52,607 bases of DNA. It comes from Candidatus Poseidoniales archaeon. GTDB taxonomy: Archaea > Thermoplasmatota > Poseidoniia > Poseidoniales > Poseidoniaceae. The stretch is taken from the NCBI GenBank assembly GCA_003602535.1, contig QQSA01000021.1, positions 15,924 through 68,530 on the forward strand. Reading direction: 5' to 3'. The first letter of the stretch is position 1. Every line of letters starts with the position of its first letter. This document shows, piece after piece, positions 2,141 to 40,809 of the stretch. The notes below the pieces were generated by a model, which had not been told where the DNA came from, did no database searches, and worked only from the letters and a program-made list of their open reading frames with translations. Made by a program: the position numbers and the translations under genes.

Positions 2141-4813
2141 ATGCGGGTCATGGCGTTGGTGATGATTCTGCTATTTTCGATAATTCCAATTAGTTCAGAG
2201 GCAACATCTGGTAGAGCCTTAAATACTGAAATTGTGATGAATGAGAGCATATGGACTTCTTCAGATTCAGTACAAGCTGAAATTTATGTTTCTGGAGCGC
2301 CATTCAACAGAGACATCATCTTGAATTGGGAATTGAGTGATGAGAATGCACTAATTGTTAATGGAACCGAATTGTTCCAGATGGGAGGTTCAACTCATAT
2401 CATACAATTGAGTTTAAGTCAATTTTACCGAGGTGGTACATTCCATGATTTGTCCGTTGAAGTGATTTTAGATTCATCAACTGCAACTGATAATCAACCA
2501 TTCACTGTCCTGAGAAACTCACTTCTTGAATCGGCTTCGAATTTGATAGTATTCGGTGATTCATTGTCGGATATGGGTAATGGCAACTCTAGTGCTGCTG
2601 TTTCATTGGTATTTTCTTCACCACCTTATTGGGAAGGCCGTTTCTCAAACGGACCTGTATGGATTGAGCACGTGTCAGATGATTATGGCCTTAGTACTTC
2701 TTTTGGGAATGGTATTTCTGCAGGAGATAACAGAGCATTTGGAGGTTCACAAACCGGTCAAGGATATTCATATGTAATCCTGCCCAATACTGGAGCCCAA
2801 ATCAATAGTTATCTTGCGAATGTTCAGTCAAGTTTCTCTAGCTCAGATGTTGTTTTCATTTGGGCTGGAGGAAATGATTTCCTGTATGGCACTGGAAATC
2901 CTGATGTGATTAGCCAAAATATGGCTTCGCATATTGAAACTCTAGCATTAGCGGGAGCTAGCAGGTTCGTAGTTGCCAACTTGCCACCACTTGAACTAAC
3001 ACCGGAAGGAGCAGGCCGAACAGCTCAACAACAAGCAACAATGGCTAGCGATATTGTTACTTACAATAGTAAGTTATCTCAAGAGATTAACAATTTGTCT
3101 AGCACTATGAATCTGGATATCACCTTAATTGATGCATGGACAATATTTCATCAAATTGTGAATAACGCAGATCATGTTGGGATAACAAATACTCAAGATC
3201 AAGCTTGCACAGGAGGGACTTCAATCGGATTAGTTCCTCTTCCAATATGTGGTTCAGGTGCAAATGTGGTATCCAATGTAGAAGAGTATCTCTTTTTCGA
3301 CAAAGCTCATCCGACAGCAACTATGCATGAGATAATTGGAAATTTTGCAGTCATGAATATTGGTGATCCTGATGTGGATGGAGATGGAATTATTGACCAA
3401 TTAGATCAATGTGAATGGACTAATGATTTTTCGACTGTAGATGAAGAAGGATGCGATTGGAATCAACAAGATGAGGATACAGATGGGGTAAATAATTCGG
3501 ATGATGATTGCTTCGAAACTTTAGAGGGATTCACAGTAGATGAAAATGGATGTGCAGACTACCAAAAGGATACTGACGGAGATGGTCTGACTGATGATAT
3601 AGACCCTTGTCCTGCGGACGTATCTGGAAACGACCATGACTCTGATGGATGCATTGATTTGGTTGATGATGATGACGATAATGATGGCATCTTAGATTCT
3701 GAAGATTCATGTGTACGTGGCCAAATTGGAGTCCATGACTTCGATTATGATCAAGATGGATGTCACGATGATGAAGATTTAGATGATGATAATGATGGAT
3801 TTTCAGATGAAGATGAATCTGAGGCCGGAAGCGATCCGTTTGATGTTGATAGTGATGATGACAATGTGTGGGATGCTGAAGACGCATTCCCTCTGGATCC
3901 AAGTGAATGGAAAGATAGTGATGAAGATGGTTATGGAGATAATAGCGATGCCTTCCCATACGATTCTAGTGAATGGTTAGATTCTGATTATGATGAGGTT
4001 GGTGACAATTCTGATGCTTTCCCTGATGATCCAACAGAATGGGATGATAGTGATGGTGATGGGTATGGAGATAATTCTGATGATTGTCCTTTGGTATCAG
4101 GCACCTCCTTTTTCCCCAAAGGGTGTCCAGATAGGGATTCTGATGGTTTCGCTGACGATATAGATCAGTTCCCTGATGATTCAGGAGATTGGGTTGATTC
4201 AGATTCAGATGGTTATGGAGATAATAATGACCAATTCCCAGATGATCCAGATGAATGGTTGGATACTGATCTGGATGGTTATGGCGACAATAGTGATGCA
4301 TTCCCCAATAATGACAGTGAATGGAATGATACAGATTTGGATGGCTGTGGCGATAATACAGATGCTTTCCCAACAGACTCAACCGAATGCATAGATTCAG
4401 ATTTAGATGGTGTTGGAGATAATTCTGATCCATGGCCGAATAATCCTCTTGAATGGGCAGACAGCGATTATGATGGTGTTGGAGACAATTCTGATTTTGA
4501 TCCTTATGATTCTTCAGAAACCTCGGACAGAGATGGAGATGGAGTTGGAGACAACTCCGATTTGTGGCCGGACGACCCACGAAAGAAAAGGGACAGTGAC
4601 GGCGATGGTGTTGCAGATTCAGTCGACGCATTCCCAAATAATCCTAGCCTTGAGTCCTGGTTTGGGGTATTGACTAGTTTGTTTGTGATAACCGGAATTG
4701 TAATTGCAGGTATATTCTTGTTCAAAAGGTCAAGAAATCCTGACTTGCCGCCGCACGAAGAAATACCTCCCGAAAAACCGCTAGAGGCTCCCAGTACCTT
4801 CGATTGGGACTGA
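2141..4813 (+). CDS. secreted SGNH/GDSL lipase-esterase with long thrombospondin type-3 (TSP3) Asp-rich repeat stalk and C-terminal TM anchor
   Basis: N-terminal signal peptide; block I VFGDSLSDMGNGN, block III IWAGGNDFL, block V DKAHPTATMH; >12 DxDxDGxGDNSDAFPxDPxEW repeats; C-terminal hydrophobic helix followed by basic residues. Confidence 0.85.
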   Translation: MRVMALVMILLFSIIPISSEATSGRALNTEIVMNESIWTSSDSVQAEIYVSGAPFNRDIILNWELSDENALIVNGTELFQMGGSTHIIQLSLSQFYRGGTFHDLSVEVILDSSTATDNQPFTVLRNSLLESASNLIVFGDSLSDMGNGNSSAAVSLVFSSPPYWEGRFSNGPVWIEHVSDDYGLSTSFGNGISAGDNRAFGGSQTGQGYSYVILPNTGAQINSYLANVQSSFSSSDVVFIWAGGNDFLYGTGNPDVISQNMASHIETLALAGASRFVVANLPPLELTPEGAGRTAQQQATMASDIVTYNSKLSQEINNLSSTMNLDITLIDAWTIFHQIVNNADHVGITNTQDQACTGGTSIGLVPLPICGSGANVVSNVEEYLFFDKAHPTATMHEIIGNFAVMNIGDPDVDGDGIIDQLDQCEWTNDFSTVDEEGCDWNQQDEDTDGVNNSDDDCFETLEGFTVDENGCADYQKDTDGDGLTDDIDPCPADVSGNDHDSDGCIDLVDDDDDNDGILDSEDSCVRGQIGVHDFDYDQDGCHDDEDLDDDNDGFSDEDESEAGSDPFDVDSDDDNVWDAEDAFPLDPSEWKDSDEDGYGDNSDAFPYDSSEWLDSDYDEVGDNSDAFPDDPTEWDDSDGDGYGDNSDDCPLVSGTSFFPKGCPDRDSDGFADDIDQFPDDSGDWVDSDSDGYGDNNDQFPDDPDEWLDTDLDGYGDNSDAFPNNDSEWNDTDLDGCGDNTDAFPTDSTECIDSDLDGVGDNSDPWPNNPLEWADSDYDGVGDNSDFDPYDSSETSDRDGDGVGDNSDLWPDDPRKKRDSDGDGVADSVDAFPNNPSLESWFGVLTSLFVITGIVIAGIFLFKRSRNPDLPPHEEIPPEKPLEAPSTFDWD
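3360..4650 (+). repeat. tandem TSP3-type coding repeats, ~39 nt units (DSDxDGxGDNSDAFPxDPSEW)
   Basis: Recurrent gat(a/t)gatggttatggagataattctgat..ttccc..gatgatcc..gaatgg units in frame with the GDSL ORF. Confidence 0.85.
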
Positions 4814-35328: not shown

Positions 35329-37299
35329 ATGCCAACCATTGCTAAGGTCTGGATCGAGGAAGATTGCATCACATGTGATGCATGTCAGGATATTTTGCCG
35401 GAAGTGTTCGAGGTAACAGACGACACAAGTCAGATCAAAGCAGATGTTCGAGAGGACGGGGCATTCGACCGCAATACTGGACTTTCTGCGATTAAAAATG
35501 AGTTCCGTTCAGAGTTCTCCGATTTGATTGAAGAAGCAGCTGATGCTTGTCCTGTTGAGATTATTAAATTTGAATATGAAGGTGGAGTTGCTGAAGAAGT
35601 TGCTGAAGAAGTTGCACCTGCTGCGTCTGAAGCAGTAGTTGCCCCGGTTGCAGTAGCAGATGCTGGTGCAGATGCAGGGGTTCTAGCAGGTGTACTTTCA
35701 GGAGATCGCAGCCTAGCAATCTTCTTTGGTTCACAAACAGGAAATGCAGCAGGCTTAGCGGAAAAAACAGCTAAGCGTGCAGTCGCTTACGGTCTTGAAC
35801 CAACCGTCATAGATATGGATGGATACGACCAAGCACAATTCTCTTCACACAAGCGTATTTTAATCATCACTTCAACATGGGGTGAAGGTGAGATGCCAGA
35901 TAATGCTGATGAGCTTTGGAATGCAACAGTAGCAGCAAACCCGTCTCTTGCTGGTGTACACTATTCAGTATGTGCTATTGGAGATTCATCGTATGATGAA
36001 TTCTGTAAGGCAGGAGAAGATTGGGATCAAAAGTTCGCATCTTTAGGTGCAACCTCAATCCTAGAGATGAAAATGTGCGATGTAGATTTCGATGAACCTT
36101 GGAATGAGTGGGTAACAGAAGTTCTTCCAAGAATTGCTTGTGTAGATTCTTCAGGAGTATTCCATGAAGATTTAGTTGAAGCGATGATTGCATACGGTGC
36201 TGGTGATGAAGATGATGAAGGCGCTGATGGCGACTTCAATCCACCGACAATCGAACAGGCTCCGATGTCATTGACTATGCGCATATTCAGATATGATCCA
36301 ATTAAAGCCCAATCAGGTTACGACACAATTGCTGTAGCTTTGCCAGGGCATGCTACAATCGAAGATGCATTGGTTGCAATAAAGAGAGAAGCCGATGGCT
36401 CTCTGACATTTAGGAGTGGAAGTATTTCTGGATTGAATCCGTTGACTGGAGTGAAGGCTAATGGAAGAATACTGCCTGCAGATACTACTAGAATCAGTGA
36501 TTTAGTAAGTGATGGAGGGACATTAACCGTCGAACCATTACCTGGTTACGAAGTTCTGAAAGATTTGATGGTTTCTTACGACCGATATGATGACTCTCGT
36601 GCTAATTCAAAACCTTGGTTAGAAGCAGATCCTCGTCAAGGGGAGAGACTTGCAAGTGGTGCTCCGATGGGAGTTATGGAATCTGCTCAAGCAACCAGAT
36701 TACACGCTTTAGCAGATGTTGGCTCGCTGCAATTAGTCAATGCAATGTCAGATACATTTGATGTTGATGACGTATACTCTGGACCGGGCATCGCTCTTCA
36801 AAGATGGGTTAGAAGTCAAGATCCACGTTCTGGAAATTCTCATGTCAAGAAGATGTTTGAACTGATGCAAAGAAAGGGCGGCGTATGGGACGAAGCAGAT
36901 ATTTCATCAATTCAAAGACATGGCATTGATGGATCACAAGCTGCAGATTCGCTTTACGCTGCAAGGTCTCGATTACTAGCAGAATACAAATTCACTGGTA
37001 AGAGCGGTAGATTGGTTAAGGTGTACTCACGTTCGGTAAAAATGTCAGGTAACGTCAATGAAACTACACTTTATCGTTCAGTATTGGGGCCATTAGGACT
37101 CGGTTCTAATATTATGAACGGGGTATCATTACGAATGATGCTAGGATTCACCAGAAATGGAGGTCCAATGATGAGAGGATTCCAAGGAATGCTTGTACCT
37201 CCTGCTGGCATTGGAAAGATTCCTGATATGTTCAATAGTAAGGTTGTTAATCATCACGAAGTAGTTGCAATTTTCAATGAATTAGATAGGAGATTCTGA
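35329..37299 (+). CDS. fusion: [4Fe-4S] ferredoxin + flavodoxin + SdhB/FrdB-like domain lacking all Fe-S cysteines
   Basis: Ferredoxin DCITCDACQDILPEVFEV...ADACPVEIIKF; flavodoxin LAIFFGSQTGNAAGLAEKTAKR, TSTWGEGEMPDNADELW, VCAIGDSSYDEFCKAG; SdhB-like from ~36265: TMRIFRYDP...IEDALVAIKREADGSLTFRSGSISGLNPLTGVKANGRILPADT...TLTVEPLPGYEVLKDLMVSYD...GVWDEADISSIQRHGIDG. Confidence 0.8.
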   Translation: MPTIAKVWIEEDCITCDACQDILPEVFEVTDDTSQIKADVREDGAFDRNTGLSAIKNEFRSEFSDLIEEAADACPVEIIKFEYEGGVAEEVAEEVAPAASEAVVAPVAVADAGADAGVLAGVLSGDRSLAIFFGSQTGNAAGLAEKTAKRAVAYGLEPTVIDMDGYDQAQFSSHKRILIITSTWGEGEMPDNADELWNATVAANPSLAGVHYSVCAIGDSSYDEFCKAGEDWDQKFASLGATSILEMKMCDVDFDEPWNEWVTEVLPRIACVDSSGVFHEDLVEAMIAYGAGDEDDEGADGDFNPPTIEQAPMSLTMRIFRYDPIKAQSGYDTIAVALPGHATIEDALVAIKREADGSLTFRSGSISGLNPLTGVKANGRILPADTTRISDLVSDGGTLTVEPLPGYEVLKDLMVSYDRYDDSRANSKPWLEADPRQGERLASGAPMGVMESAQATRLHALADVGSLQLVNAMSDTFDVDDVYSGPGIALQRWVRSQDPRSGNSHVKKMFELMQRKGGVWDEADISSIQRHGIDGSQAADSLYAARSRLLAEYKFTGKSGRLVKVYSRSVKMSGNVNETTLYRSVLGPLGLGSNIMNGVSLRMMLGFTRNGGPMMRGFQGMLVPPAGIGKIPDMFNSKVVNHHEVVAIFNELDRRF

Positions 37300-37308
37300 G
37301 GTGAAATT

Positions 37309-38169
37309 ATGGTTAAGTATTCTTATTATCCTGGAAATGTAGCCCGTCAATCCTCAAGAGAAGTTGAAGATACAATCCAGCCTCTTTGCCGCAGTTTAGG
37401 CATTGAGTTAATCGAAATGGTGGGATATAATGGAGATGGTGGAAACATCATCAAGCAAGGAAATAGGGATTTACAATTGGCTCTTAATGCTCGTAATCTT
37501 GCAATCGCAATGAAGAACGGACATGACATTATCACCCCTTGTGCTTCAGCCCAAGGTATTCTTCATGATTCGCTCAAAACTTTCCGAGAGAACCCAATAG
37601 CATTAGCAGATGCAAATCGCGTACTTGAGATGACTACAGGAATGACTCTAGATGTTTCAGAAATAACGACCAACCATTTGCTACATGTCCTTGTAGATGA
37701 AATTGGTTTGGATAAAGTGGAAGCAGCAGTTGTCAATCCTCTGGATATGGATATTGCTTGCTATTATGGACCTCATATGCAAATTGAAGGTGCATGTGGT
37801 AATGATGATGCCTGGAATCCAAGTTACATGGAGCAACTGATAACTGCATTAGGTGGACGCCCAGTTGAATACAAGACGAAGACTTCTAGCGTTGGTAATC
37901 CATCACTTCTTTCATTAGGGGATTCTGTGATGAAAATGACAGCTCGAGTTCTAAATGATGCCAAAAAGGCAGGAGCTCAAGTTTTGGTTAGTGCTTGTAC
38001 CCAATCACACTCAAATCTAGATTCATATCAAGGAAAAGCAGGACGTGTTTCTGGTAAGGACACAGATATTCCAGTTGTAAACTTCACTGAAATTATTGCA
38101 TTTGCTTTAGGCCATTTCACCGATCGTTTTGCACAGTTGAAAACACGTGCAATGTTAATTGGTTCCTGA
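37309..38169 (+). CDS. HdrB/SdhE-like (CCG-domain family) protein with degenerate cysteine motifs
   Basis: YSYYPGNVARQS...LGIELIEMVGYNGDGGNI...LNARNLAIAMKNGHDIITPCASAQ...NHLLHVLVDEIG...IACYYGPHMQ...YMEQLITALGGRPVEYKTKTSSVGNPS...VLVSACTQSHSNLD matches the HdrB fold pattern with most Cys replaced. Confidence 0.72.
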   Translation: MVKYSYYPGNVARQSSREVEDTIQPLCRSLGIELIEMVGYNGDGGNIIKQGNRDLQLALNARNLAIAMKNGHDIITPCASAQGILHDSLKTFRENPIALADANRVLEMTTGMTLDVSEITTNHLLHVLVDEIGLDKVEAAVVNPLDMDIACYYGPHMQIEGACGNDDAWNPSYMEQLITALGGRPVEYKTKTSSVGNPSLLSLGDSVMKMTARVLNDAKKAGAQVLVSACTQSHSNLDSYQGKAGRVSGKDTDIPVVNFTEIIAFALGHFTDRFAQLKTRAMLIGS

Positions 38170-40809
38170 TTAACCGTGCAAGAATTTGTACAGTTCTTTG
38201 GCTTGTATGGATGACACTCCTTCAATATCAGTAAGTGCTTGCTCACTAATTGTACATAATCCCATAATGTCTCCTGCAATTTCCATTATTCGGTTTGCAG
38301 TTGTTATTCCGATTCCTGGCAATTCTGCCAATATTTTAGTTCTCTGAAACATCACTTCTTTATCCCATCTATTTGCTAAAACACCATCCTCTGATTCTCC
38401 GTTCATTATTGACATTATTTCTGCGGATGCAGCTTTAATTGATGCCTTTTCAGCATCAATCATTTTTCTCTTGGTATGAATCATCAATAAGTCGAGAAAT
38501 CTGGATTCCCTTTTTGCAACAATTGAAACAAACCTTGCAGTTTCTTCCGGCGACCCTGTCATTAGGACCGGTAGCCCAAGATCTAGTGTAATCCATGCCA
38601 TAGCGCCATGAACTGCATTAGGATGTACTCTCTGAGTTTCAATAGATTCTACGATTAACAATGGCCTGGGTGCAGCATTGTGTAATCTTCTGGCTTGCTG
38701 TATCAATCGTCCATCAATTAATGAATCAATTAAATCTCTAGCACTTTTTCTTTCGATTAGTATTCGATCTGAAATTCTAATGTCGCCTACAGTAAGGTTT
38801 TCTAAACTAATTTCGTGACCATATAACTTTAGCATTGCAGGCAAGGTTGAATTTCCCTCTCTATGGTCAATTGTAATCAAAGTCTTTGAGTCGGCTTCAA
38901 TACTCATTGAATCTACTTCGGTTTGAGCAGCAGATGATGTGTCATTTTCTTTTTCTCTGGAATGACTAATTGTTCCATCAAGTACTGGTTTCCACCATTC
39001 GGACTTACTATCAGAAGTATTGTTAGAAAACTCTGTTAGAGACATTTGTGCCCTAGGTCTGTTTGATGGTTCCGAATTCTTCACATTGTTTGTCTTTGCT
39101 TGTTTTACGACATTTTCAGAAACATGTTCTTTTTCTCTAAACAATCTTTCTTCTTCCTTTTTTATGAACGATTCAGCATCTTTTCCATCGATTGTGAAAG
39201 ATGCCAAAACATCATTTTTTGGCTGTGCCCTTCTAGGTAATCTCGATTGTTTTTGCAATCCTTGTAAAGTTCTATACATCAGCTGCTCGCGACGTAAAGA
39301 TGCCTGTTGCACATACTCGTCACGAGTACCTTTTGCTACCAAAATATGGACATCTCCATCTTTTTGTCTAGCGGTTCTACCTCTTCGCTGTATTGCACGT
39401 ATTGCACTTGGTACTGGTTCGTAAAGAATCACACTATCTGCCGCAGGTACATCCAATCCCTCTTCTCCGACACTTGTAGCAACTAGAACATTGATTTCAC
39501 CTTCTCGAAATCTGTCTAATTGTGCAATCTGATCTTTTTGCTTCATTCCAATTTGACTTCCTTTGGTAGTCTGTCCAACAAACCTACCAGGTTTGATGCC
39601 TGGTTGGGAATTCAGAATTTCCATGAGGTTGTCAACAGTATCTCGATATTCAGTAAAAATGATTACTTTACCATCACCAGATAATCCTTGTTTTACTAAT
39701 TTCTTTACCAATTCAGGTTTAGGATGACACTCATCGCTTTCACGATCTTCTCTTAGTAAATCAGCTACTGGTGTCAATGATAGGAATCTCTTAGTTTTGC
39801 GATCTTTCTCTATTTTGGCTCTTTCAAGATATTTGATTGCACATGTTAATCCTTGAGTATCTAATAAATCCAATAATCTATGCAATCTTCTAAGGTCGCC
39901 AATTCGTTTTGCTGCATCGTATCCTCTTGCATCCCCTCTTCCTATTGCTGCGCTTGCCCTTCTGTGAGCTTCTTCAATCGCAGCAGTGGTGACTCTTCCA
40001 GACTTCACCAAGAATCCTGACCTCATCAAAAATTCTGCTTCTTCCGCTTCAAGAATTCGCAATGGCCTGATTTTACTGAGTAATTCATCAGGGATATTCA
40101 GTTCATGTTTTTCGATATCCATTGAGGTAATGTATGGTTGGACAAGGTCATCTTCTCTCTTAGTAACATGAAGTCTTTCAATTCCTAATCTTTGTATGAC
40201 TTCTAGGACTTTAGATGATTTCACTCCTGGTGAAGCAGTTGCAGCTAAAATGTGAGCCTTAGATGAAGCTTCTAGATACATATCTCCCAATTGGGCCATC
40301 GAATCTGAACCGGTAGCGTGATGTGCTTCATCAACGATTAGAAGATCGATATCTGAAAGCAAAATTCTTCCATTTCTCGCATCGTTTCTGATAACGTGGG
40401 GAGTTGCCATAACCATTTTCGCATCCTTCCAAATAGTCTCTCTTTTTGCAGGACGATCTTGGCCGGTTAATGTGACAATTTTGTCACTATCTAGATTGAT
40501 AAATTCTCTGGCCATTCTAGCCTGTTGAGCAACCAAACCAGTTGTAGGGGCTACCAATACTATTTTTCCAGGGCCATCTAATGACTCTGCCATAGCCATC
40601 CATTGAACTGCAGTTTTTCCTAAGCCGGTAGGCATTACGAGTAGTGTTGATCCTGAAATTGCTTGTTTGGCAGCGATTAATTGGTATGCTCTCGCTTCAA
40701 CACCATCTCTGAGTTGAGGGTGCGTCAGCGACGGTGTCATAGGTGCTATTGTGCGTCGGTGGCTCAAGAGGATTTGCATAGGAGGCTCTTCAAATTCATC
40801 TTCAACCAA
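38170..40809 (-). CDS. hef: Hef-like helicase/nuclease (SF2 helicase + ERCC4 nuclease + HhH)
   Basis: MPTGLGKTAVQW, LLIVDEAHHATG, LAATASPG, IQRRGRTARQKDG; nuclease ITIDHREGNSTLPAML...ILIERKSARDLIDSLIDGRL; HhH LAELPGIGITTANRIMEIAG. Confidence 0.92.
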   Translation of the reverse strand: MVEDEFEEPPMQILLSHRRTIAPMTPSLTHPQLRDGVEARAYQLIAAKQAISGSTLLVMPTGLGKTAVQWMAMAESLDGPGKIVLVAPTTGLVAQQARMAREFINLDSDKIVTLTGQDRPAKRETIWKDAKMVMATPHVIRNDARNGRILLSDIDLLIVDEAHHATGSDSMAQLGDMYLEASSKAHILAATASPGVKSSKVLEVIQRLGIERLHVTKREDDLVQPYITSMDIEKHELNIPDELLSKIRPLRILEAEEAEFLMRSGFLVKSGRVTTAAIEEAHRRASAAIGRGDARGYDAAKRIGDLRRLHRLLDLLDTQGLTCAIKYLERAKIEKDRKTKRFLSLTPVADLLREDRESDECHPKPELVKKLVKQGLSGDGKVIIFTEYRDTVDNLMEILNSQPGIKPGRFVGQTTKGSQIGMKQKDQIAQLDRFREGEINVLVATSVGEEGLDVPAADSVILYEPVPSAIRAIQRRGRTARQKDGDVHILVAKGTRDEYVQQASLRREQLMYRTLQGLQKQSRLPRRAQPKNDVLASFTIDGKDAESFIKKEEERLFREKEHVSENVVKQAKTNNVKNSEPSNRPRAQMSLTEFSNNTSDSKSEWWKPVLDGTISHSREKENDTSSAAQTEVDSMSIEADSKTLITIDHREGNSTLPAMLKLYGHEISLENLTVGDIRISDRILIERKSARDLIDSLIDGRLIQQARRLHNAAPRPLLIVESIETQRVHPNAVHGAMAWITLDLGLPVLMTGSPEETARFVSIVAKRESRFLDLLMIHTKRKMIDAEKASIKAASAEIMSIMNGESEDGVLANRWDKEVMFQRTKILAELPGIGITTANRIMEIAGDIMGLCTISEQALTDIEGVSSIQAKELYKFLHG

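Follow-up and report, generated by a model that had tools for sequence, protein, structure and literature searches.

What remains of an iron-sulfur subunit when most of the cysteines that hold its clusters are gone? This question is raised by two adjacent genes on the stretch of DNA analysed here (the window, 52,607 nucleotides from a genome of the Poseidoniales, an order of archaea that are highly abundant in the surface ocean). One of them codes for a fusion that ends in an SdhB-like domain, the other for a protein resembling SdhE and HdrB (Table 1). A sequence-only reading had taken the latter for an HdrB-type protein with CCG domains, and had proposed that it forms with the SdhB-like part a co-evolved, cluster-free complex, derived from the SdhB-SdhE module of a type-E succinate:quinone reductase (SQR) and repurposed together. 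No description of such a module was found in the literature on Marine Group II flavodoxin and heterodisulfide reductase (for flavodoxin, titles and abstracts).

Table 1. Features of the gene pair in window positions; the last three rows give positions in the respective Helicobacter loci.
Feature	Position	Strand	Remark
Partner gene, ferredoxin - flavodoxin - SdhB-like fusion	35329..37299	+	656 aa
Single-cluster [4Fe-4S] ferredoxin domain (Fer4_13)	35329..35583	+	cysteines kept in the window
FMN flavodoxin domain, CysJ/CPR type	35707..36144	+	no other PF00258 domain in the window's genome
SdhB-like domain with type-E C-terminal extension	36241..37296	+	12/12 cluster cysteines lost
Gap between the two genes	37300..37308	+	9 nt after the fusion's stop codon
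SdhE/HdrB-like protein, two CCG-fold domains	37309..38169	+	286 aa ORF; 8/10 cluster ligands lost
Codon of Cys78, remaining Cys of domain-1 CxxC	37540..37542	+	C in 58/59 relatives
Codon of Cys230, remaining Cys of domain-2 CxxC	37996..37998	+	invariant, 59/59
Helicobacter SdhB-like + HdrB-like pair, L179	4103-5587
Helicobacter SdhB-like + HdrB-like pair, L182	3419-4936
Helicobacter SdhB-like + HdrB-like pair, L181	3528-5021

The assignment of the second protein to the SdhE/HdrB fold is well beyond chance. Its best NCBIfam profile is NF042965, the SdhE of 8-methylmenaquinol:fumarate reductase (MfrE/SdhE; E 7.6e-31), and the HdrB profile TIGR03288 matches with E 1e-30, both far below the curated cut-offs (107.7 versus 500 bits and 107 versus 345 bits, respectively). 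The CCG-domain profile PF02754 reaches 23.3 bits at a cut-off of 20.6, in domain 1 only, and is matched by all 32 diverse family members with E <= 0.01. Moreover, HdrB chains in the PDB match with E 6.6e-27, and Foldseek gave TM-scores of 0.87-0.89 of target for HdrB structures (5ODC, 8RVY). A chance resemblance of motifs is ruled out by these profile and structure matches, and the proposed HdrB-type fold is thus sustained, also by the PF02754 comparison that had been suggested for it. However, the window protein differs from MfrE/SdhE in its sub-threshold score, its lost ligands and the missing flavoprotein subunit next to it. Unlike the HdrB of heterodisulfide reductase, which has the same fold, it is devoid of either CCG motif and has SdhE, not HdrB, as its nearest relatives; the tree described below and the curated cut-offs rule out that it is an HdrB of such an enzyme.

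The motifs had been read exactly. The protein carries YYPGN, then NGDGG at the expected CCG (GDG at residues 42-44) and CASA (78-81), followed in the second half by YYGP (152-155), SSVG (193-196) and CTQS (230-233), hence both CxxC pairs keep their first Cys (78 and 230) and not the second (81 and 233), as had been stated. In order to view the family, a ligand matrix was built from 59 Poseidoniales SdhE-like sequences and 20 ligand-keeping SdhE/HdrB of the same phylum. Type-E SdhE carries a ten-cysteine motif (PMC2680327), and in the 20 reference sequences the ten ligand columns, i.e. window residues 10, 42, 43, 78, 81, 155, 194, 195, 230 and 233, are all Cys, save for a single non-Cys residue in two columns. 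Among the Poseidoniales, this motif for two [4Fe-4S] clusters is incomplete everywhere, with at most six of the ten ligands in any relative. The window protein keeps two (C78 and C230), a pattern found in 31 of the 59 sequences; C43, C78 and C230 are present in 21, all five domain-1 ligands plus C230 in six and four domain-1 ligands plus C230 in one, while Cys78 is replaced by Ser in L057. The domain-2 ligands are gone in all 59, C230 excepted, and their replacements are nearly fixed (P155 in 51, S194 in 59, V195 in 56 and S233 in 56 of 59). In addition to the family-specific invariant S194, the residues Q50, Q56, Y173, E261, R273 and R280 are invariant across the family and not in canonical homologs. 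The label cluster-free therefore suits the window's genus but not the family, and describes most lineages rather than all as judged from their ligands; close homologs with full motifs, which would speak against it, exist by half, namely as complete domain-1 sets in the six relatives mentioned.

Loss in both halves of the pair, as noted in the sequence-only reading, is confirmed by the counts in Table 1. The twelve cysteines of type-E SdhB are absent from all 58 aligned SdhB-like sequences, bar stray residues at two positions. The flavodoxin domain of the fusion matches the cysJ profile with E 6.7e-37, its FMN-binding motifs are nearly invariant among relatives, and no flavodoxin besides it was found in 12 of the 15 genomes examined for this. 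Unlike CysJ or cytochrome P450 reductase, which share this domain, the fusion lacks an FAD/NADPH domain and has a ferredoxin or a second flavodoxin upstream. Most loci show the order ferredoxin-flavodoxin-SdhB; a second flavodoxin stands in the ferredoxin's place in L034, L035, L036, L039, L044 and L060, which represent several genera of f2, the second family of the order, and five other loci have flavodoxin-SdhB. Fer4_13 was not found anywhere in six genomes of family f2 with ferredoxin-less architectures that were tested. Where the ferredoxin is absent and the SdhE-like protein is ligand-poor, which applies to some lineages, the module is left without an iron site that can be recognised. A need to save iron or to tolerate oxygen might account for this direction of change. 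In one further locus (L038, G046:C9, 2627-4024), the ferredoxin is joined straight to the SdhB-like domain without a flavodoxin, possibly owing to an assembly gap.

Where the pair comes from can be read from its closest outside relatives. In a profile search of the phylum these were the families f6 (approximately 237 bits) and then f27 (approximately 195 bits), Thermoplasmatota in which the gene serves as sdhE in a normal sdhA-sdhB-sdhE operon that has all the ligands. The SdhE-like protein aligns with these SdhE over its full length (273 columns, E 1.7e-64, hhalign), and the SdhB-like domain aligns with their SdhB over 311 columns (E 4e-23, profile alignment), which take in the type-E extension at the C-terminus. 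In the tree, the Poseidoniales SdhE-like proteins form one clade (100/100) that is placed nearest to the f6/f27 SdhE (parent branch 90/81) and away from HdrB. On these sequence grounds, the ancestor of the pair is identifiable as the SdhB-SdhE module of a type-E SQR, as had been proposed; the ligand-complete sister operons and the full-length homology agree with it, and so do the adjacency and the joint structure model described below. Compared with type-E SQR of Acidianus and the sdhABE of Thermoplasmatota, the B-E gene order, both full-length subunits and the SdhB extension are shared. In contrast, the Poseidoniales pair has no SdhA, its SdhB-like part holds at most stray single ligand-column residues instead of three clusters, eight of the ten SdhE ligands are lost in the window, and ferredoxin and flavodoxin domains are fused to SdhB. 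The module is not the succinate dehydrogenase (SDH) of the organism either, since the window's genome encodes a classical SDH at another place, comprising SdhA, an ordinary SdhB and a membrane anchor, in agreement with the complex II stated for Poseidoniales (PMC6336850). Two other CCG-domain proteins in the same genome (L061 and L062, G000:C117 and C101) are apparently membrane-anchored and have largely intact motifs.

A joint loss of the clusters in both halves is not supported. As read from the ligand matrix, the SdhB clusters and the domain-2 cluster of SdhE were lost first, before the order diversified, and the domain-1 site later. A one-time joint loss of all clusters is rejected for domain 1 by the trees and the matrix. 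In the SdhB-like tree, f2 forms one clade (100/99) with the domain-1-complete L048 and L050 at its base, and further domain-1-complete members belong to family f1. The tree of the SdhE-like proteins, calculated without the ligand columns, brings the ligand-poor sequences together (89/87), yet monophyly of f2 is not rejected by it (p-AU 0.236), i.e. two losses are not demanded by this gene tree alone. The residues left at the site also differ, being SDG or GDG versus TSCG. Because of both trees and these differing residues, we consider that the domain-1 site was probably lost independently, at least twice, in the two families.

Despite the loss of ligands, the pair is tightly kept together. It was found in 60 of 61 relatives, and in the 59 loci where both genes are readable they are adjacent without exception, separated in all but one by the 9-nt gap, another short gap or an ATGA overlap; hence the co-occurrence and linkage that the sequence-only reading had called for were borne out. 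Of 195 genomes sampled from the class, 164 carry the SdhE-like gene; matches are clear across both families of the order, and a third, sister family gave a single weak one. For within-genus pairs below saturation, the median dN/dS of the SdhE-like gene was 0.03 and that of parts of the fusion 0.05-0.08, which are rough values in view of high dS. Furthermore, 37 columns are invariant, and reading frames are intact in nearly all of more than 160 genomes. The relic or pseudogene pair that the massive loss of ligands might otherwise bring to mind is rejected by the dN/dS values and the intact frames, and is hardly credible in the face of the invariant columns. One SdhE-like gene (G151:C29:1932-2780) contains an in-frame TGA, the sole internal stop among the matches listed. 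In L034 (G039:C27), the two genes make up a single 997-aa frame with the junction near 3950-3975, due to a frame-shifting deletion by which the SdhB-like domain has lost its end; this is a single MAG and may be an assembly error, and the fused frame was therefore set aside as evidence of interaction. The gene neighbours give no hint to an acceptor in the window and five further loci read: upstream lies a thermosome gene, no SdhA, and downstream a Hef/ERCC4-type helicase-nuclease gene, which in the window (38170-40809, minus strand) ends directly against the SdhE-like gene and occurs in the same arrangement in the five others.

Structure prediction is in line with a heterodimer. AlphaFold2 placed the SdhB-like domain and the SdhE-like protein together (mean pLDDT 80.9, pTM 0.82, 20 paired rows), which supports the predicted complex that the sequence-only reading had wanted modelled, but is no proof: the model was a single chain with the in-frame stop read through, and this short artificial linker may favour closeness. 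For the full-length fusion with its partner the pTM was 0.61, with ferredoxin and flavodoxin confidently folded. Disordered linkers are predicted at 86-117 and 293-308, as expected for mobile domains, hence the flavodoxin is predicted to be mobile. Foldseek matched SdhB at a TM-score of about 0.82.

What could such a pair do? Our preferred reading, to which we give a probability of slightly below one half (about 0.45), is that a remnant of type-E SQR was recycled as an SdhB-SdhE platform, largely redox-inert, to which a mobile FMN flavodoxin is tethered. From an ancestral enzyme, SdhA was lost and SdhB became fused to a ferredoxin domain, a flavodoxin domain or both, while iron-sulfur clusters were removed stepwise, i.e. 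those of SdhB and of SdhE domain 2 across the order, later that of domain 1 in most lineages, and some ferredoxins as well. Judging from linkage and the AlphaFold model, the old heterodimer was most likely retained as platform. Supplied by the ferredoxin domain or the second flavodoxin, the FMN would swing on the flexible linkers and pass electrons to a candidate acceptor docked on or next to it. Since the SdhB half has no clusters, the old path from SdhB to SdhE is closed, and the FMN most likely feeds a docked partner. Altogether, this suggests a respiratory enzyme recycled into an iron-poor platform that would deliver electrons to a putative target.

A plausible acceptor is the Poseidoniales complex I, which lacks the NADH-input subunit NuoF. 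Of 13 Poseidoniales genomes, 12 have NuoD and 12 gave no match to NuoF; the one NuoF match (PF01512, L184, G004:C55) is either contamination or a real exception. Campylobacterota, in which a cluster-free pair occurs as well, have a complex I without nuoEF whose probable coupling partner is flavodoxin or ferredoxin (PMC6682613), which makes complex I a candidate together with the NuoD/NuoF pattern, but it is a parallel and not evidence of contact with our pair. The link is weak, because NuoF, to our knowledge, is also missing from other archaea with a working sdhABE. It is conceivable, though we would sooner bet against it, that the pair represents a new respiratory electron-input module, in which an iron-stripped SdhB-SdhE docks the tethered flavodoxin (plus ferredoxin or second flavodoxin), and that in organisms without NuoF this flavodoxin feeds the quinone pool or complex I. 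Cluster-free pairs would then have arisen convergently in Poseidoniales and Helicobacter, and in some lineages the whole module would contain no iron. The module is a candidate electron-input route for this complex I. A multi-cluster respiratory module has shed its metal stepwise while both subunits and their pairing stayed under strong purifying selection, the order of loss is readable because intermediates survive in living genomes, and iron-sulfur subunits, as this suggests, can persist as cofactor-free platforms.

An inert scaffold, nevertheless, does not account for everything: the invariance of C230, Q50, Q56, Y173, S194 and E261 exceeds its apparent needs. The main rival is therefore new chemistry around C230, which the family-specific invariant residues keep open. 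In the emptied SdhE pocket, Cys230, in most lineages with Cys78, and Ser194, Ser233, Gln50, Gln56, Tyr173 and Glu261 would form a binding site for a substrate such as a quinone or a thiol, to be reduced by the tethered FMN. The fixed residues that took the place of the domain-2 ligands, the universal C230 and the residues that are invariant here and not in canonical homologs, including R273 and R280, argue for it. However, the invariant residues may serve packing, and a universal Cys78-Cys230 pair is excluded by the Ser of L057 and by the six lineages in which Cys78 is a cluster ligand, so that we regard this reading as doubtful, albeit worth keeping in sight.

Metal could also have been retained, as a non-cubane-type [4Fe-4S] cluster in domain 1 where the ligands are complete, and elsewhere perhaps as a cluster with the unusual ligands Asp43, Ser42 and Cys78. 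The five, four and two domain-1 cysteines kept by six, one and 21 of the 59 relatives would fit. Yet, no relative having SdhB clusters, a cluster there would no longer be connected to the former electron path, and in the window's genus Cys78 alone is left of domain 1; for the window's own protein the case is weak, and overall we deem it improbable. Still less probable is that the pair mimics SdhB and acts in assembly or regulation by binding the flavoprotein of the classical SDH or some other SdhA-like protein. In favour of this, the SdhB fold is preserved along its entire length and the window's genome has a classical SdhA. However, that SDH comes with its own, different SdhB as well as a membrane anchor, and the flavodoxin/ferredoxin fusion and the retained SdhE-like subunit would be left unexplained.

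The pair had been treated as unique, which is not the case. Foldseek also found 3KWL, the solved structure of an uncharacterised Helicobacter pylori protein, which matches both halves (TM-score 0.68 of target). Proteins of this type (PF22196, HdrB-like_C) are encoded in Helicobacter by two adjacent genes (L179, L182) or by one gene (L181), and neither half shows cluster motifs; the Poseidoniales module provides context for 3KWL. The likeness is one of architecture only, an adjacent or fused, motif-free pair of SdhB-like and HdrB-like proteins: PF22196 scores 13 bits on the window protein at a cut-off of 33.4, and unlike the Poseidoniales module the Helicobacter pair has no flavodoxin or ferredoxin fusion. 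Since the SdhE-like half from Helicobacter matches canonical SdhE with a probability of 97 and the Poseidoniales family with one of 66, its clusters were probably lost independently. Some Poseidoniales still hold domain-1 ligands, and therefore the losses at least at this site are independent of Helicobacter. The Helicobacter pair is fused in H. cetorum, and a conserved gene coding for some 155-160 aa lies upstream of it, together with a pepF-like gene.
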